A stretch of 64,000 bases of DNA. Origin: Deltaproteobacteria bacterium (GTDB taxonomy: Bacteria; Desulfobacterota; Binatia; UTPRO1). Of the stretch, positions 29,670 to 49,067 are shown piece by piece. The position numbers were made by a program, and so were the translations under genes. The stretch covers positions 1 through 64,000 of the forward strand of contig JADLHM010000025.1 in the NCBI GenBank assembly GCA_020848745.1. Direction: 5' to 3'. How positions within the stretch are numbered: the first letter of the stretch is position 1; each line of letters starts with the position of its first letter. The notes below the pieces were generated by a model. It searched no databases. It was not told the origin of the DNA and saw only the letters and a list, made by a program, of their open reading frames with translations.

Positions 29670-30329
29670 GTGAAGATCGCCCTGCTTCCCGCGAAGCCGC
29701 TCGCCTTCGCCAAGACGAGGCTCGCACCCCTCCTCTCGGACGCGGAGCGCGCGCGTCTCGCCGCCGCCATGTTCCTCGACGTCCTCCGCGCCCTCACGAC
29801 GGCGCGCGCGGTCGAGGCGGCCGTCGTCGTGACCGCCGACCCGACGCTCGCCGCGCACGCACGCCGAGCCGGTGCGGTCGTCGTCGACGAGGGGACACCA
29901 CGCGGGTTGAACGCCGCCGTCACGCTCGGCACCGACACGGCCGCGCGGCTCGGCGCCACGAGCACGCTCGTCGTCCTGTCCGACGTGCCGCTCGTGCAGG
30001 CCGCGGACATCGACGATCTCCTTCACCGCGCCCCGGCGCACGGCGCCCTGGTCGTCCCCTCGAAGGAAGGGACGGGAACGAACGCCATGCTCCGCACGCC
30101 CTCCACCGTATTCCCGCCGTCTTTCGGCGGCCGAAGCCTCGAACGTCACGTCGCGGCCGCCGAACGGGCCGGCCTTCCCTGCACGATCGTGCGCAACGCC
30201 CGGTTCGAGCTCGACCTCGACACGCCCGAGGACTTGAGCACGTTCGCGAGTGAGCGCAGCGCCACCGAAACGTACCGCGAGCTGACGCGGCTCGGGGGCT
30301 CGACGCTGCGGATCAGCGCCCGCGTCTAG
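29670..30329 (+). CDS. cofC: CofC/FbiD-like guanylyltransferase (F420 pathway)
   Basis: Probable phospholactate or phosphoenolpyruvate guanylyltransferase (219 aa), the enzyme that supplies the activated lactyl unit of coenzyme F420. Segments: VKIALLPAKPLAFAKTRLAP opens the protein, then FLDVLRALTTARAVEAAVVV, TLVVLSDVPLVQAADIDDLL, VVPSKEGTGTNAMLRTPSTV and NARFELDLDTPEDL. The start is GTG 29670, with GAGGA 8 bases upstream; the frame upstream is Arg/Ala-rich and unconvincing. No other F420 gene is in the window. Its stop overlaps the convergent ygfZ stop by four bases. Confidence 0.85.
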   Translation: MKIALLPAKPLAFAKTRLAPLLSDAERARLAAAMFLDVLRALTTARAVEAAVVVTADPTLAAHARRAGAVVVDEGTPRGLNAAVTLGTDTAARLGATSTLVVLSDVPLVQAADIDDLLHRAPAHGALVVPSKEGTGTNAMLRTPSTVFPPSFGGRSLERHVAAAERAGLPCTIVRNARFELDLDTPEDLSTFASERSATETYRELTRLGGSTLRISARV

Positions 30330-31384
30330 GCGGGAAACGGCAACGCACGCACGATCACCGCCGACCCGCCCGAGACGCCGAGCGCGAGCTCGCTGCCCGG
30401 CTCGAAATGCCCGCGGCGGACGTATGCAAGACCGATCGTTCGGCCGAGCCGCCACGATCGCCCGGCGCTCGTCACCCATCCGACCTCGCGATCGCCCACG
30501 AAGAGACGAGCGCCCGGCGAGGGAACGCTTTCACTTTCGCCCTCGACCTCGATGCCGACGAGCCTTCGGTTCACATGCCCGCGCGCCGTGACCCGCTCCA
30601 TGACCTCCTGACCGAGATAACACCCTTTGCGAAAGCTGATCGCCGCCTCGTAGGGCGCCTCGAGCGCCAGCGTGTCGACCAGGACGTCACGGCCGTGGCG
30701 CGGAACGCCGCCCTCGATGCGCAGCACCTCGAACGCATCGGTGCCCGCGGGGCGTCCGCCCGCCGCGACGCAGCGGTCCCACCACACCGCAGCCCCGGCC
30801 GATGGGATGCGGCACAGGAACCCGCCCGCCCCGGGCATCGACATGCGCACGACGTGCGGCTCGCCGTCCGCAATCGCGGCCGGCGCGTGCGCGCAGGGGT
30901 CGTTGGGCGCGGAAAGTCCGAGCCTGGCGAGCACGTCGGACGCGTCCGGACCGAGCAACGCAAACGCGTACCCCGGCGCCGCGGGCACGAGATCCACGTC
31001 GTCGGCCACGACGAACCGCTCGAGCGCCGTGCGCACCGTCGAGGCCGCGCCGACGCCATCGAGCGCGATCACGTCCTCGCCGGCGAGCACGACGAGGTCG
31101 CCGACGACCTTGCCTTGCTCGCTCAAGAGCAGCGCGCGGCAGCCGCTCCCGGGCGCGAGCTTCACGACGTCGTTCGACAGCATCCCCTGGAGGAATCCGA
31201 TCCGATCCGCGCCCGTCGCTCGTAGGCGCTCGATCCACGGCAACTCGACCACGGCCGCCGCATCACGCATCGCCGCATACTCCGCCACGGCATCGCCGAA
31301 ATGCGCGGCGACCGGGCGCTCCGCCTCGGCGACGAGCGCGGCGCCGCGGGACCGCATCGCGGCAACGAGCGCGTCCTCAGTCAT
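30326..31384 (-). CDS. ygfZ: Folate-binding Fe-S maintenance protein YgfZ
   Basis: GcvT-like tetrahydrofolate-binding protein that helps maintain or repair iron-sulfur enzymes (352 aa). Seen: VVELPWIERLRATGADRIGF, FLQGMLSNDVVKL, and the family signature KGCYLGQEVMERVTARGHVN (usual form KGCYxGQE) with its functional Cys. The C-terminal barrel is GREVGW-like (DREVGWVTSAG). The start ATG 31384 overlaps the preceding small gene's stop in ATGACTGA. It lies in the same run as the RND-cNMP-binding exporter. Confidence 0.92.
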   Translation of the reverse strand: MTEDALVAAMRSRGAALVAEAERPVAAHFGDAVAEYAAMRDAAAVVELPWIERLRATGADRIGFLQGMLSNDVVKLAPGSGCRALLLSEQGKVVGDLVVLAGEDVIALDGVGAASTVRTALERFVVADDVDLVPAAPGYAFALLGPDASDVLARLGLSAPNDPCAHAPAAIADGEPHVVRMSMPGAGGFLCRIPSAGAAVWWDRCVAAGGRPAGTDAFEVLRIEGGVPRHGRDVLVDTLALEAPYEAAISFRKGCYLGQEVMERVTARGHVNRRLVGIEVEGESESVPSPGARLFVGDREVGWVTSAGRSWRLGRTIGLAYVRRGHFEPGSELALGVSGGSAVIVRALPFPA

Positions 31385-31778
31385 CGCCGAGCTCCACCGC
31401 CGCCCGCCGGCGAATGAAGGCACGATGGCGCGCGGGTCCCCGCGGCCACGTCCACCACCCCTCGGCCGTCCTGAAGTCCGGCGCGAACTCCAGCACGACC
31501 TCGCCGTCGCCGGTGCTCTGTCGCCAGACTCCCGTGAACGATCGGCCGTAGAACCGCCCGCTCACGACGGCGCCGCGAAAGTCGAAGCGAAACGACAGGC
31601 GGTCTTCTTCAACCGTCACGCTGTGGACAGGAAACGCGACGTGGCGGTGGTCGTCAAGCTCGTTGGCCCGTCCGCCGAACCAGCCGTACTCGTACCAACC
31701 GCTCGCGAGCTCATGCGCCGCACGCACCGCGGTGCTTCCGGCATTCGGTGCGTCGTCGTGCGAAGAAGGGCGCGGCAC
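31377..31778 (-). CDS. Conserved-looking hypothetical protein
   Basis: Soluble protein (133 aa) of unknown family. Its sequence is rich in aromatic residues and beta-type patterning: SGWYEYGWFGGRANELDDHR, HVAFPVHSVTVEEDRLSFRF, GRFYGRSFTGVWRQSTGDGE, then WWTWPRGPARHRAFIRRR. It could be a small beta-barrel with a ligand pocket, but that is a guess. It starts 4 bases after the RND gene stop and overlaps ygfZ by 8 bases, so it is embedded in a three-gene operon. No signal peptide is seen. Confidence 0.7.
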   Translation of the reverse strand: MPRPSSHDDAPNAGSTAVRAAHELASGWYEYGWFGGRANELDDHRHVAFPVHSVTVEEDRLSFRFDFRGAVVSGRFYGRSFTGVWRQSTGDGEVVLEFAPDFRTAEGWWTWPRGPARHRAFIRRRAAVELGDD

Positions 31779-31782
31779 GGCG

Positions 31783-34554
31783 TCACCGTGCCGCGGCGAG
31801 CCGGTCCGTCGTGCGCTCGACGTAGTCGCTGAGGATGCGGGTCAGGTTGAGAAACACGGTGGCCGCGATGCGCGGATAGCGCCGCTGGAGGCGCTCGAGG
31901 AACCGTTGGTCGACTGCCAGTAGCTCGAGATCCTCGACGGCGATGATGTCGGCGGTCCGTTGCTGTCGCCGGACGAGCCCCATCTCACCGAAGACGTCGC
32001 CCCGCTTCAGCTGATGCACGAGCCGTCGGCGTCCGTCGGCGCCCTGCACGACGACGTCGGCACGACCGTTGATGATCACGTACATCTCCTCCCCGAGCTC
32101 GCCCTGACGAACGGCCGCCTCGCCGGCCGGAACGTTCTGCAAGCGGCCGAGCAGGACGGCGATCCGCGCCTGCGCGCGGCGCAGGCCATGGAACAGCCGC
32201 ACCGTCTTGTGAGGATCCTTGCCGAGCTTCACGAACAACAGGTCCCAGAGCGTAACGATCCGCGTCTGGGCGAGCAACGCGGGGAGCAAGACGACGTTGG
32301 TCACCAAGGCGGCGAGCATGGTCGCGGCCGACAGGCTGCCGAAGTCGCGGATCGGCACGAAGTCCGAGAGACGCATCACGAGAAATCCGAGCGTCAAGGC
32401 GACGGAGGTGTACACGATCGGCCGGCCGACCGTGCTGAGCGCGGCGGACAGCGATTGCCGCTCGTCGTAGGTCACCTGCAGCTCGCGGTTGAAGCGCACC
32501 ATGTAGTGGATCGTATTGTCGACGGCGATCCCGAGCGCGATCGCCGCGATGATGCTGGTGCCGATGTTCAGCATGATGTTCGACCACCCGAGGATCCCGA
32601 AGAAGAACATCACCGGCACGATGTTCGGCAGCATCGCGATGAACCCGACCTTGGCCGACAGGAACAAGAGCGACATCACGACGAAGATCACCGCGAGCGC
32701 CACGCTCACGCTCTTCACCTGCCCCCACACCACGTCGTCGGTCGTCCCGTTCAAGAGGATGATGCTGCCGGTGGGCTCGGCCGGCATGCCGGGGTGCTGC
32801 TCCGCCCACGCGCGGATGCGGCTCACCACCTCGGCAATCTCCGTGGAAGTCTCGAAGCGGGTGCGCACGAGGACGTTTGCCTGCCCGAAGTCGCGCGCGA
32901 TGACCGATCGAAACGTATCGGGATTCTGCCGAACGAGCGCGAGCACCTCGCCGAGGCGACTCGGGTCGTCCCAGAAGCTCTTCACATCCGCGGGCTTCAC
33001 CTCGTTGCCCTGCTCGTCGACGACGATGTCGCCGCTCGCGCGCAAGCCCGCGTCGAGGAGGTCGAGGTAGTCGGTGAAGGCCACCGTTCGGCTGACGCCG
33101 GGGAGGCTCTCGAGATAGCGCTGCAGCTCGCGCAGCTCGCGCAGCGCGCGCATGTCGAGCATCGACTGCGGCTGGCCCGTTCCGACGACGACGTAGAAGG
33201 GCAGGGCGCCGGCGATCCGCGAGCTGATCGCGGTGTGCGCGAAGCGCACGGGCGAATCACGCGGAAAGTAGGCGAGGAAGTTCGTGTCCGCCTCGATACG
33301 CGGCAACGCCATGACCGACAGCGCCACGAGGCCGGCGGCGACGATGAAGATGACGCGCCGATGGCGAATGTCGATCTGCGCGAGGCGCGAAAGCGCCTGC
33401 CCGAGGCCGCCCCGCTCTCCTTCCGCTGGCACCCGGCGGTAGCGGCGCTCCGGCATCACCATGATGAGCGCGGGGACCAACGTCATGGCCAGCAGGAACA
33501 AGAACGTAATGCCGATCACCGAATACATCCCGAGCGCCCGTACGGCCTGAATCGAGTTCAGGAGCAACGCGGAGAAGCCGATCATGGTCGCGAGCCCGGA
33601 GATGAACACCGGCAGTCCCGCTTGCCGGAGCGCGCGATGCACGGGATGCTCCGTGCCCGTCGGGGTCTCGAGCTCGAGATAGTAGCGCGCGACGACGTGC
33701 GTAGCGTACGAACTGCCGATCACGATCAGGAGCGAGGGCAGCACCAGTGTCCCAAGCGAGATCGGCTCCCCGATCCATCCCATGACGCCCATCGTCCAGA
33801 GCACGCCGACGAGCACGCAGAGCAACGGCAAGACGACGCCGCGACGCGTACGAAACGAGAAGAACAGCACCGCGATCATGAGCGCGAGGCTGGCCGGCGT
33901 GAGCACGGCCAGATCCCGGCGCATGAGATCGAGGCCCCTCACTTTCAGGTGGGAGAGTCCGGTCATGTAGAACCGCTCCGGACTCGCTTCGTCGTAGGCG
34001 TCGGCGAGGATCTGCTCGAGCGCGCGGTCGATCCGTTGCGCCGCCTCCTCGCCAGGCTCGTCGTCCTCGAAGAACACGTTGATCGCGGCACCGTGGCTGT
34101 CCGGAGAAATCAGGTTGCCGGCGAAGAGCGGATTGTCCTTGATGCGCGCGCGCAGCCGATCGCGCGCCTCCGTCGTCTTCGGGACCTCGGGGATCAGCAG
34201 CGGCGGGTTCAAGACGTCGGCGATCGGATCACGGACGTTGGTGAGGCTGATGACTTGCGCGACGCCGTCGATCGCGGCGACGCGTGTCGTGACCGTGCGG
34301 ATCTTCTCGAGCGTGGAGGCCGACAACACGTCCGGCGCCAGCACGCCGACGATGTCGATCTCGTCGTTGCCGAACCGTTCGATGACCTGGGCGTAGAGCG
34401 CTTGGCCGGGATCGTCGCGCGGCAGCAGCGTCCCGACCGAGCTGTCGACGCGCAGATGCCGCGCGCCCGCGCCGAGCAGCACCGTCACGACCGCCACCAC
34501 CGCCAGTACGAGCCATGGGAACCGGATGATGGCTCGGTACGCCGCGTCGGCCAT
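31783..34554 (-). CDS. RND/MMPL exporter fused to cyclic-nucleotide-binding domain
   Basis: Inner-membrane RND-superfamily transporter (923 aa). Helix 1 ([17 protein letters not shown]) is followed by a periplasmic loop with [15 protein letters not shown], an SSD-like helix cluster (residues about 240-400), a second periplasmic loop, and a second cluster with [20 protein letters not shown], the typical GxxxD site. Residues about 801-923 form a CNB domain: [20 protein letters not shown], then [20 protein letters not shown] with the Glu and Arg of the phosphate-binding cassette. Exporters of this class move lipids or hopanoids; the CNB end implies cytoplasmic gating by a nucleotide or a protein partner. 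Start at ATG 34554. Confidence 0.88.
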
Positions 34555-34621: not shown

Positions 34622-35383
34622 ATGCAGCTCACCGACGTTCTCTACGAGAAGCGCGACGGCACGGCGTGGATCACGATCAATCGGCCCGAACGGCGCAACG
34701 CGTTTCGCGGCGAGACCGTGCAGGACTTGATCGCGTGCGTGCGCGACGCGTGGCGGGACCGCGACGTCGGCGTCCTCGTGCTGACCGGCGCGGGCGACAA
34801 AGCCTTCTGCAGCGGCGGCGATCAGAAGGAAAGCTACGTCGGGCTCGACGACGTCGCGACGCTCCATGCCGCGCTCCGCAACGTCCCGAAGCCCGTGATC
34901 GCGATGGTGAACGGCTACGCGATCGGCGGGGGCCACGTCCTGCACGTCGTCTGCGACCTCTCGGTCGCGGCCGACACCGCGATCTTCGGTCAGACCGGTC
35001 CTCGCGTCGGCAGCGTCGACCCGGGGTTCGGCACGGCGTACCTCGCGCGCGTCATCGGCGAGAAGAAGGCCCGCGAGATCTGGTACCTCTGCCGGCAGTA
35101 CAGCGCCGCCGAGGCGCTCGCCATGGGGCTCGTGAACAAGGTCGTCCCGGCCGCGGATCTCCGCACGGAGGTCGAAGCCTGGTGCGCCGACCTCCTCGCG
35201 AAGAGCCCGACGGCGCTCCGCATCGCGAAGCAGTCGTTCAACGCCGACAGCGACCACCTCCACGGTATCGGCGGGCTCGGGTTCAGCGCGGTGGAGCTCT
35301 ACTACCAGAGCGCCGAAGCGAAGGAGGGCAAACAGGCGTTCGTGGAAAAGCGCGCTCCGGATTTCCGGAAGCACGCCAGGTGA
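34622..35383 (+). CDS. BadI/MenB-type crotonase (ring-cleaving or ring-forming)
   Basis: Crotonase-superfamily enzyme (253 aa). The oxyanion-hole regions are [14 protein letters not shown] and [60 protein letters not shown], and [21 protein letters not shown] are shared by 1,4-dihydroxynaphthoyl-CoA synthase (MenB) and 2-ketocyclohexanecarboxyl-CoA hydrolase (BadI). The GSVDPG form, the short N-terminus and [16 protein letters not shown] favour BadI, which opens the ring in alicyclic/benzoate degradation, over MenB; this assignment rests on memory of the families. No menaquinone or benzoate genes are beside it. Confidence 0.82.
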
Positions 35384-45082: not shown

Positions 45083-46665
45083 TGGCGGCCGAGCCCGGCC
45101 TGCTGGCCCTCGTCCTGCAAGCGCACCTCCCCTGGGTGCGCCATCCCGAGTACGAGTCCTTCCTCGAAGAGGACTGGCTCTTCGAGGCGATCACCGAGAC
45201 CTACCTCCCGCTGCTCGGCACCTTCGAGAGGCTCACCGACGACGGCATCCCGTATCGGGTCACGATCTCGCTCTCGCCGCCGCTCCTCAACATGCTCGCC
45301 GATCCGCTCCTGCAGGCGCGCTACGAGCGCTATCTCGAACAGCGCATCGGGCTCGCCGAACGCGAGGTCGCGCGCACGCGCCACGACCCGAGCTTCGCGC
45401 CGCTCGCGCGCCACTACCTGACGGCGTTCCGGCGCGCGCACGAGACCTACACGGGCCGCTACCGGCGGAACCTGATCGCCGCCTTCGCCGCGCTCGCCGA
45501 CACCGACGGCGTGCGCCTCATGACATCGGCGGCGACGCACGGCTGTTTGCCGCTCCTCGGCGTCAACGAGCAGACGGTGCGGATGCAGGTGATGCTCGGC
45601 ATGAGCGAGTTCCGCCGCTTCTTCGGACGGCCCGCGTCGGGCTTCTGGCTCCCCGAATGCGCGTACTACTCGGGGCTCGACCGCGTCCTCGCCGACGCCG
45701 GCGTGCGCTACACCTGCGTCGACACGCACGCGATCGAGCTCGCGTCGTCGCCGCCGGTCTACGGCGTCCACGCCCCGATCTTCTGTCCGGCGGGCGTCGC
45801 CGCCTTCGGTCGTGACGCCGAGTGCGCCCGCCAGGTCTGGAGCTCCGTCGAGGGCTATCCCGGCGACTTCGATTACCGGGAGTTCTACCGCGACGTCGGC
45901 TTCGACCTGCCCCTCGAGGACCTCCGGCCGTTCGTGCCCGAGACCGGCGAGCGCACCTACACCGGGATCAAATACTACCGCGTGACCGGCACGGGCGATC
46001 ACAAGGAGCCCTACAATCCCGAATGGGCGCGGGCGAAGGCGGAGCTCCACGCCGCCCATTTCGTCGAGAGCCGCGCGCGGCAGGTGGCCCGCCTGCGGGA
46101 CGCGTCGGGACGCGCGCCCCTCCTCACCGTACCCTTCGACGCCGAGCTCTTCGGCCACTGGTGGTACGAGGGACCGACGTGGCTCGACTTCCTCTGCCGC
46201 CACGTCGCGGCCCAGGACGCCTTCCGGCTGACGACGCTCGACGAGTACCTCGACGCGCACCCGACCCACCAGGTCGCCGAGCCGAACACCAGCTCGTGGG
46301 GCTTCAAGGGCTACCACGAGGTCTGGCTGTCCGGCGCCAACGATTGGATCTACGGCCACCTGCACCACGCCGCCGATCGCATGGTCGCGCTGGCGCGTCG
46401 CCACCCGGACGCGCGCGGGCTCGTGAAGCGCGCGCTCGATCAGGCGGCGCGCGAGCTCCTGCTGGCGCAGGCGAGTGATTGGGCCTTCATCATCGCGCGC
46501 GGCACGGTCGTCGACTACGCCGTCCGGCGCACGACCGAGCACCTCGAGCGCTTCGGACGGATCGCCGACGAGATCGAGCGCAGCTCGATCGACGCATGCC
46601 GACTCGCGGCGATCGAGGCGGCGGACAACCTCTTCCCGACGATCGACGCCGGCCGCTACGCCTGA
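45082..46665 (+). CDS. GH57 1,4-alpha-glucan branching enzyme (DUF1957)
   Basis: Glycogen-type branching enzyme of glycoside hydrolase family 57 (527 aa, the usual size for this subgroup). LVLQAHLPWVRHPEYESFLE opens the barrel. The nucleophile Glu is in GFWLPECAYYSGLD and the acid/base Asp in TVPFDAELFGHWWYEGPTWL. The C-terminal helical domain is typical (NTSSWGFKGYHEVWLSGAND, AQASDWAFII). It is coupled to the DUF4912 protein and overlaps the convergent MMPL gene by 10 bases. It implies cytoplasmic alpha-glucan storage. Confidence 0.93.
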   Translation: MAAEPGLLALVLQAHLPWVRHPEYESFLEEDWLFEAITETYLPLLGTFERLTDDGIPYRVTISLSPPLLNMLADPLLQARYERYLEQRIGLAEREVARTRHDPSFAPLARHYLTAFRRAHETYTGRYRRNLIAAFAALADTDGVRLMTSAATHGCLPLLGVNEQTVRMQVMLGMSEFRRFFGRPASGFWLPECAYYSGLDRVLADAGVRYTCVDTHAIELASSPPVYGVHAPIFCPAGVAAFGRDAECARQVWSSVEGYPGDFDYREFYRDVGFDLPLEDLRPFVPETGERTYTGIKYYRVTGTGDHKEPYNPEWARAKAELHAAHFVESRARQVARLRDASGRAPLLTVPFDAELFGHWWYEGPTWLDFLCRHVAAQDAFRLTTLDEYLDAHPTHQVAEPNTSSWGFKGYHEVWLSGANDWIYGHLHHAADRMVALARRHPDARGLVKRALDQAARELLLAQASDWAFIIARGTVVDYAVRRTTEHLERFGRIADEIERSSIDACRLAAIEAADNLFPTIDAGRYA

Positions 46666-49067
46666 CCGCGCGCCCGCGGTGCCGCGAGCAGCCGCAGGCC
46701 GACCGGCACCAGGGTGAGCGCCATCAGGAGCCCGACCGTGCTGCCGAGCGCGCCGGCGAGGCCGAGGTCGCGCAGACCGTCGAAGTCCGAGAACACGAGC
46801 GCGCCGAAGCCCGCGGCGGTCGTGAGCGCGGTCGCGGCGATCGGCGGCCCTTCGTCGCGCAACGTCGCCGCGATGCCGTCGGGCCCGTCGATCGTGCCGG
46901 CGCGATGCAGGAGGAACATGCCCTCGTCGACGGTGATACCGAGCAGCACCGGCAGCACCAGCGCCGAATACGCGTGGAGCGGAATGCCGGCGAGGCGGAA
47001 GAGCGCCAGCACGGCGGCGACCTCGCCGAGTACGACGACCGTCGCGATCACGACGTCGCGCGCGCGGCGGAGCGCCGCCACGAGGGCGAGCACGACGAGC
47101 AGCGCCGCCACGACCCCGATGCGCGGCAGGTCGTGGCGGAGCGACGCTCTGAGATTCGTCTCGAGGCGTCCGTAGCCCGTGAAGACGGCGGTCGGCTCGA
47201 CGGCGTGCACGGCCGCCTCGATCCGCGCGACGGCGTCGGCCCCGCCGCGCGGCTGCACGTAGATCGCGAGCACCGTCTCGTCGCCGTCGACCGCGAGATA
47301 GCGCGACAGCAGGATCGCCGAAGGGGTCGCCTCGAGCTCCGGAAGATCGAGCAGTTCGCGCGGCGGCCGGCGCATCGCGGCGAGGACGGCCGCGAACCGA
47401 TCGGCGGCGAATCCGGTCTCGCGGAGCGCGCGCTCGAGCGCGTCGGCCTTCGCCGGGAGATCGAGCGCGTCGCGCTCGACGAGACGCGCCGCTTGGGTCG
47501 CGAGCGCCGGCACGAGGGTGCTGAGCGCGTCGACCGTCTCCGCGTCGGGCACCGTCGCGAGCGTCTCGACCACGCGATCGGCGCGCCCGCGCGCCTCCGC
47601 GGGATCGCGATCCGCGACCATCGCGATCACCTGCCCCGGCCGGCCGCCGAACGTCCCGTAGATCTCCTCCTGCACCCGGAGCGGCTCGAGCGCGCTCGGA
47701 CGGATGCCGACGATCGCCGCGGCGAGCGGCGGCGGCCCCTGGACCGCCACCACGACCACCGGCGCAAGGACGACCGCGGCGGTCACGAGCGCGCGGCGGC
47801 GCGTGCCGGCGAGCCACGCGAAGAGCCGTGTCCAGCGCGCCGCCGGTGCGGCGGGAGGCGCGCCGCGCTCGAGCCAGCGCCCGACCTCCGGCGTCACGAG
47901 GAGGATCGCGACCGCCGTCAGCACCTCGCCCGCGGCGCAGAGCACCCCGAGCTGGCGGACGGCGCGGATCTCCGAGAGGCCGAGCGCCGCGAAGGCGGCA
48001 GCGGCGGTCACGGCCGCGAGCAGCACCGCACGCGCGGTCGTGCGGCGGGCGACGGCGGCGGCGGCACGCGCGTCGAGACCGGCGCGACGCGCCTCGAGCA
48101 GCGCGGCGTACACGTGCACGCCCGTGTCGACGCCGACGCCGATCACGACCGACATGAAGGCGACCGCGATCGCCGAAAGACCGCCCGGCAGCACCGCGGC
48201 GAGCGCCGCCGTCCAGAGCGTCCCCAGGAGCAACGGCGGCAGCACCGCCACCAGCGCGCGGATGCGCCGGAAGAGCGCCACGAACACCACCGACGCCAGC
48301 ACGGTCGCAACGGGCCCCGAGCGCATCAGGTCGCTCTTGATCATCGTCTCGGTCGCGGCCGCGATCGCGTGCCCGCCCGTGTCGCCGATCTCGACCCCCG
48401 GATGCGCGGCGCGGAGCGGAGCCAGCACCGCCGCCATGTCGCGCGCGAAGGCGCGCGCGTCGGCCGACACGAGCGCCTGGCCGCGCCCCTTCACGAGCAC
48501 GAGGCAGGTCCGTCCGCCGTCGCTCGTGACGCGCCCGTCGGATTGCGCGCGGAGGCCGCTCGTCGCCGCTGCGCTCTCGAACGCGATCTGGGTGAGGCGC
48601 AGAGGGTCGCGCGCGACGAGCGCGACGAGCGGCCCGCTCCCGGGAAGGGCGAGCAGCCGTCGGCTCTCGCCGAGCCGCGCCCGCATCCCGTCGGGCGTGA
48701 GCGCCGCCGCGAGGCGGGTCCGGACTCCGGCGTTCGCGTGCCGCCACACGAGCCACGGATCCAGCTGTCGCGAAGCGCCGATGCGGTCGACGGCGATCGC
48801 GATGCTCGGACGCGCCGCGAGGGCGGCCGCGATCTCCGCGCAGAGTCGGCGGTTCAGGTCCGGATCGTCGCTGCGGACCATGACGGCGCCGAGATCGCCG
48901 CCGCCGAAGGCGCGGACGTAGCGCCTGAGCGCGACGGCGTCGCCGCGATCCGGAAGGAGCGAGCCGACGTTGGGATCGAGCCGCCACCTGCCGCTCACGA
49001 CCCAGAGCGACGCGCCGGTCGCCGCGAGGAGCGCCGCCAGCGCGAGCGTGCGCGCGCGACCGGTCAT
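46656..49067 (-). CDS. RND/MMPL-family exporter
   Basis: Large inner-membrane transporter (803 aa) of the MMPL/HpnN-like RND type. Helix 1 (TLALAALLAATGASLWVV) precedes WRLDPNVGSLLPDRGD, two periplasmic loops, and two six-helix clusters. VVIGVGVDTGVHVYAALLEA and LPVLLGITVDEGMFLLHRAG are the transmembrane Gly/Asp motifs of each half. Hopanoid or lipid export is the usual role, but the substrate is not determinable. It follows exbD by 55 bases, so an ExbBD proton motor is encoded with it. Confidence 0.85.
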   Translation of the reverse strand: MTGRARTLALAALLAATGASLWVVSGRWRLDPNVGSLLPDRGDAVALRRYVRAFGGGDLGAVMVRSDDPDLNRRLCAEIAAALAARPSIAIAVDRIGASRQLDPWLVWRHANAGVRTRLAAALTPDGMRARLGESRRLLALPGSGPLVALVARDPLRLTQIAFESAAATSGLRAQSDGRVTSDGGRTCLVLVKGRGQALVSADARAFARDMAAVLAPLRAAHPGVEIGDTGGHAIAAATETMIKSDLMRSGPVATVLASVVFVALFRRIRALVAVLPPLLLGTLWTAALAAVLPGGLSAIAVAFMSVVIGVGVDTGVHVYAALLEARRAGLDARAAAAVARRTTARAVLLAAVTAAAAFAALGLSEIRAVRQLGVLCAAGEVLTAVAILLVTPEVGRWLERGAPPAAPAARWTRLFAWLAGTRRRALVTAAVVLAPVVVVAVQGPPPLAAAIVGIRPSALEPLRVQEEIYGTFGGRPGQVIAMVADRDPAEARGRADRVVETLATVPDAETVDALSTLVPALATQAARLVERDALDLPAKADALERALRETGFAADRFAAVLAAMRRPPRELLDLPELEATPSAILLSRYLAVDGDETVLAIYVQPRGGADAVARIEAAVHAVEPTAVFTGYGRLETNLRASLRHDLPRIGVVAALLVVLALVAALRRARDVVIATVVVLGEVAAVLALFRLAGIPLHAYSALVLPVLLGITVDEGMFLLHRAGTIDGPDGIAATLRDEGPPIAATALTTAAGFGALVFSDFDGLRDLGLAGALGSTVGLLMALTLVPVGLRLLAAPRARGQA

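Follow-up and report, generated by a model that had tools for sequence, protein, structure and literature searches.

What does a cyclic-nucleotide-binding (CNB) domain do at the end of an RND exporter? The question is raised by one gene in the window, by which we mean the whole 64,000-nucleotide stretch of DNA analysed here. A preliminary description had an RND pump continuing without interruption into a CNB domain, and this is what we found. The open reading frame runs without a break from the ATG at 34554 to the end of the stop codon at 31783 on the minus strand, and its single product carries both Pfam domains. The gene and its parts are as follows.

31783..34554, minus strand: RND/MMPL-CNB fusion gene, one ORF of 923 amino acids plus stop (Pfam MMPL and cNMP_binding)
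32260..34554, minus strand: RND transporter part, residues 1-765 (Pfam MMPL; 12 predicted TM helices and two periplasmic loops)
33667..33741, minus strand: TM4, about residues 272-296, in the alignments G280-S281-S282-Y283-A-T-H286, relay Asp absent
32473..32565, minus strand: TM10, about residues 664-694, in the alignments G675-I-A-V-D679-N680-T-I-H683, Asp kept
32146..32271, minus strand: connector between TM12 and the CNB domain, about residues 762-803 (mean pairwise identity 0.64)
31879..32139, minus strand: core of the CNB domain, residues 806-892 (PF00027, E 1.9e-20; phmmer)
31939..32001, minus strand: phosphate-binding cassette, residues 852-872, with E857 and R866 in 43 of 43 fusions

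A profile search had been proposed as a check, and both families came out far above their cut-offs. MMPL (PF03176, E 6.5e-40) matched in two stretches that cover both repeats, with 137.5 bits against a gathering cut-off of 20.5. The cNMP_binding match at residues 806-892 (E 1.9e-20) scored 73 bits against 27.5. An alternative GTG start 78 bases upstream would give a product of 949 amino acids; in the alignment, the ATG at 34554 agrees with the point where homology begins in relatives.

With phmmer, the CNB domain matched PKG, the PKA regulatory subunit, CRP and SthK. Its cassette reads F855-G856-E857-M858-G859-L860, followed by R866-T867-A868-D869. None of the 43 aligned fusions departs from Glu857, Arg866, Gly856 or Ala868, and the Glu and Arg to which the preliminary description had pointed, as contacts to ribose and phosphate, are thus retained throughout. 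The residue after Arg866 is variable (T, S, G, A, I). The cassette agrees with the canonical pattern of cAMP and cGMP binders tabulated by Kannan et al. (PMC2246266). A choice between cAMP and cGMP from Thr867 was rejected, since T or S after the Arg is found in both kinds of protein.

Mean pairwise identity among the fusions is 0.72 in the cassette, 0.67 in the CNB C-helices and 0.64 in the connector (residues 762-803), compared with 0.23-0.55 in the transporter regions (0.32-0.55 in the TM helices), all of which lie below the connector. Such conservation of cassette, connector and C-helices is expected if the CNB domain is coupled to the pump and not carried along. The full-length AlphaFold2 model has a mean pLDDT of 83, and of about 72-86 in its CNB part; a structure of the isolated CNB domain predicted from one sequence was discarded (pLDDT 39). 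The 12 TM helices of the model, together with the standard RND topology, would place the C-terminus in the cytosol. This is the compartment in which cyclic nucleotides reside. Class III nucleotidyl cyclases gave 11 matches in the window's genome, and at least one was found in 35 of 36 relatives.

Because of the invariant pocket Glu and Arg, the conserved connector and the presence of cyclases, a cyclic-nucleotide-regulated exporter is the best supported reading. The protein is, with fair probability, an inner-membrane secondary-active RND exporter of a lipid or hydrophobic molecule, regulated by cyclic nucleotide through its CNB domain. A class III cyclase would make the nucleotide, which would bind the cytosolic C-terminal CNB domain. 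On binding, the CNB C-helices and the connector would shift, and TM12 would change the transport cycle of the RND pump. The pump would take a hydrophobic substrate out of the inner membrane, and a LolA-like carrier in the periplasm would receive it; the genes of carrier and pump are linked in relatives, not at the window's locus. The ligand would most likely be cAMP. Nucleotide binding, the sign of regulation, the proton drive, the substrate class and the hand-over to LolA are steps that we infer.

The CNB domain could instead serve oligomerisation, localisation or protein docking, or bind another small molecule as in FNR and CooA, with no gating by cAMP or cGMP. Many domains of the CRP fold are not cyclic-nucleotide sensors, several bacterial CNB families have altered cassettes (Kannan et al., PMC2246266), and a CNB domain that answers other signals may still keep its cassette residues; the variable residue after Arg866 also fits. 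However, unlike those altered-cassette families, the fusions have a canonical cassette in which Glu857 and Arg866 are constant, and we hold this explanation to be unlikely.

The transporter part is modelled with 12 TM helices, and large loops follow TM1 and TM7, as seen from the AlphaFold2 secondary structure and the Foldseek matches. The best Foldseek matches were MmpL4, MmpL5, MmpL3, NPC1L1 and HpnN, which are transporters of lipids, siderophores or sterols. HAE3 (TIGR00921) was the top NCBIfam match and nearly full length (residues 11-761), below its curated cut-off (226.9 against 351.9 bits); the cut-offs of the HpnN models were likewise missed (TIGR03480, 143.5 against 751.85; NF052374, 71.5 against 1100). 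Pfam also gave matches to the sterol-sensing and Patched families. The transporter is an MMPL/HAE3-type RND protein with an HpnN-like fold. Sequence and model give it the same fold and domain order as HpnN and MmpL3/4/5; unlike the fusion, none of the solved RND relatives among the matches listed is described with a CNB domain.

Gly/Asp clusters had been described in both relay helices. This holds for TM10, with D679, but not for TM4, which lacks the Asp. In the phmmer alignment to MmpL4, S282 stands at the Asp and Y283 at the Tyr of the TM4 Asp-Tyr pair, and no acidic residue occurs in the TM4 segment G280-H286. Acids in both TM4 and TM10, as in an MmpL3/4-type relay, are thus not found, D679 alone being present. 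Group C of the fusions (see below) has Glu-Asp at positions 283-284 instead. MmpL3 has two crossed Asp-Tyr pairs; by comparison, the Y283-D679 pair would presumably remain, while the second pair would be lost (S282-N680). With the TM4 Asp missing, proton coupling may differ or depend on D679 alone, and it is plausible in the fusion. D679 and H683 are each present in 42 of 43 fusions, a near-invariance expected of an energised pump.

A quick-method tree of 52 rows, built from the RND part alone, divides the fusions into three groups: A (25 rows, with the window), B (7 rows; Solimonas and myxococcal-type MAGs) and C (9 rows; Desulfobacterales and Alphaproteobacteria). Three changes suffice on this tree, either one gain of the CNB domain plus two losses or up to three gains, its CNB-less relatives being thinly sampled and several of them on long branches. 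Members of all three groups (L104, L123 and L124) occur together in G003, a genome of the window's family.

Of the 16 fusions in groups B and C, 15 have a LolA_like gene directly upstream and in the same orientation (PF17131; the three of these genes that were tested gave E 4e-35 to 8e-59). In group A, the fusions with such a neighbour are L117, L121 and the partial L128. Of 44 fusions, 18 have a LolA_like gene within 400 bp and on the same strand; among 66 CNB-less RND homologues, 3 do (Fisher 2.7e-6, a value that is inflated, the loci being related and the CNB-less set more distant and diverse). At most group C loci the next gene encodes a secreted-looking protein of 450-530 amino acids, and the fusion often lies upstream of it. 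The one at L122 matches DUF1302, a putative outer-membrane protein; two others from group C gave no convincing Pfam match. At L122 (11749-14889, minus strand), two tandem LolA_like genes are followed by the RND-CNB fusion, with the DUF1302-type gene upstream, and the locus forms a compact candidate export operon.

Within the window's clade, no LolA or outer-membrane partner gene stands beside the fusion except in the basal branch, and at the window's locus an adjacent gene for a LolA-family periplasmic protein, as in AmeABCD, is absent. Several intact LolA_like genes occur elsewhere in the window's genome, and the copy on C70 shares 55% identity with the LolA_like protein next to the fusion at L117, which comes from another family. 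On C70 (about 63.5-66.0 kb; L129:5509-8010, plus strand), this LolA_like gene, a gene for an ABC-2 permease and one for a separate CNB protein seem to form an operon. Together with the L117-type linkage, this makes two cases in which LolA-like export goes with a CNB protein.

Lipid or small-molecule export had been suggested from the start. LolA-like genes by distant fusions and the MmpL/NPC1/HpnN fold speak for it; the substrate itself we infer. It is possible, and we put it forward tentatively, that a second messenger binding to the pump itself sets the export of lipids or hydrophobes to a LolA-like carrier, as a post-translational control directed at the outer membrane.

The signal could also run the other way, from membrane to cytosol, with the RND part as a Patched/SSD-like sensor of membrane lipid that controls the availability of cyclic nucleotide. 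The sterol-sensing and Patched matches, a TM4 without Asp and a clade without fixed partner genes around the window would fit such a sensor, but D679 and H683 of TM10 are almost invariant, as in an energised pump, and LolA-like carriers go with clades B and C, as the putative outer-membrane protein does with C. We consider a sensor of this kind quite improbable.

The fusion is not peculiar to the window. Fusions in one frame were found at the level of genus (93% and 87% identity), of family (71-72%) and in other families of the class (39-50%). A census probe spanning TM11-12, the connector and the CNB domain matched in 69 of the 148 genomes of the class; less six CNB-only matches and one cut at a contig end, this gives a single-frame fusion in 62. 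With a strict threshold, 24 of a phylum-wide sample of 395 had the fusion. Scanning of named genomes added Desulfobacterales, Solimonas, Thalassospira, Pacificispira, Rhodospirillaceae and myxococcal-type MAGs, and the fusion is thus present in Alpha- and Gammaproteobacteria besides Desulfobacterales. The Thalassospira marina copy, on a complete plasmid, is annotated merely as 'MMPL family transporter'. The survey of related genomes proposed in the preliminary description therefore shows that the fusion recurs in the class and in other phyla, and the remark that RND pumps are not normally fused to CNB domains is right for characterised pumps but not for genomes, where the architecture is widespread. 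The RND-CNB fusion is real, old and common to many uncultured bacteria and several proteobacteria. An artefactual joining of two genes by assembly or gene calling has next to no probability and was rejected, since no stop or frameshift separates the RND and CNB parts in relatives and single frames occur in dozens of separate assemblies, from 93% to about 27% identity, as well as on the named plasmid of T. marina.

In one genome (G011), the fusion is found as two overlapping frames (L127:8227-10945, minus strand). The break is near residue 368, between TM6 and TM7, inside the RND part and away from the RND-CNB join. The first frame continues out of register, and a true two-gene version is therefore less likely here than a frameshift (error or decay).

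The genes around the fusion in the window are as follows.

31377..31778, minus strand: 133-aa protein, co-directional, without a family; its only other occurrence is in the closest relative
30326..31387, minus strand: YgfZ/CAF17-like protein (GCV_T/GCV_T_C; TIGR03317 above cut-off), downstream of the fusion
34622..35383, plus strand: enoyl-CoA hydratase (PF00378, E 3.1e-68), divergent

The operon described with the 133-aa protein and ygfZ is confirmed in its order, and TIGR03317 supports the identity of YgfZ; there is a gap of 5 bp between the fusion and the 133-aa gene and an overlap between the latter and ygfZ. The 133-aa protein had no match in Pfam or NCBIfam and is outside the proposed mechanism. 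In each of the five family-f1 genomes for which flanks are available, YgfZ is adjacent or close to the fusion; this order is kept mainly in the window's family, and other group A branches have different neighbours. A function drawn from the window's own operon was rejected, because its neighbours are family- or genus-level and other branches differ. The identification as an RND exporter plus a CNB domain stands; the statement on the relay helices is half right, and the operon partners are uninformative. The window has a second MMPL/HAE3-like RND transporter, of 803 amino acids and without a CNB domain (46656-49067, minus strand), which matches the HpnN and BstA sterol-transporter models weakly and in each case below the cut-off.

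As far as we know, RND pumps are controlled mainly via transcription and small partner proteins. If the proposed regulation is true, a conserved second-messenger pocket on the pump itself would allow the export of lipids or hydrophobes to be switched directly and fast, and would make the pump a bacterial counterpart of SLC9C1. For SLC9C1, a sperm Na+/H+ exchanger, gating by a voltage sensor and by cyclic-nucleotide binding has been reported (PMC6052114). As is predicted for the fusion, it combines secondary-active transport and a CNB domain in one polypeptide (PMC6052114); it differs in its unrelated transporter fold, eukaryotic origin and voltage sensor, and its function has been shown, whereas the fusion is known from sequence.

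The closest likeness to the group C loci is AmeD of Castellaniella defragrans. According to the part of the report used here (PMC6394551), AmeD is an HAE3 RND protein whose co-expressed partners are a DUF1302 outer-membrane protein and a pair of periplasmic proteins, of which one belongs to the LolA superfamily, and deletion of ameABCD lowers monoterpene tolerance. The clade C fusions have the same types of partner alongside. In that part of the report no CNB domain is mentioned for AmeD; the window's fusion, in contrast, has no adjoining partner genes and no TM4 Asp.

Bacterial transporters with a fused CNB domain are known as NTT-HEAT-cNBD (PMC5381601) and MFS-CNBD (PMC10710835) proteins, which belong to another transporter superfamily and substrate class than the fusion. 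SthK and the mechanosensitive-channel CNB proteins (family 14, PMC2246266) also have a C-terminal, cytosolic CNB domain with a canonical cassette after the last TM helix, and the CNB domain of SthK aligns with that of the fusion; they are channels, whereas the fusion is a predicted exporter. No description of an RND-CNB protein was found in the open-access literature searched (weak evidence of absence), Kannan et al. in 2007 did not name an RND fusion among 30 CNB families (PMC2246266), and a dedicated RND-CNB model was not among the NCBIfam matches of the fusion. Transporter-CNB fusions are thus already known in other superfamilies, and the RND version is widespread and unnamed. The family extends over several classes, and its cultured members in Thalassospira, Pacificispira and Solimonas make it approachable by experiment.

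Other CNB proteins were seen in the window's genome. A 736-aa ORF with a cNMP-binding match (L129:9094-11402, minus strand) lies next to an overlapping frame in which another, weaker CNB match precedes hydrophobic segments; these are possibly two adjacent CNB membrane proteins. On contig C6, a protein of 1073 amino acids (L130:122-3343, minus strand) has a weak MFS match, HEAT and a CNB domain. It resembles the NTT-HEAT-cNBD fusions and is likely a second, putative transporter-CNB fusion in this genome.
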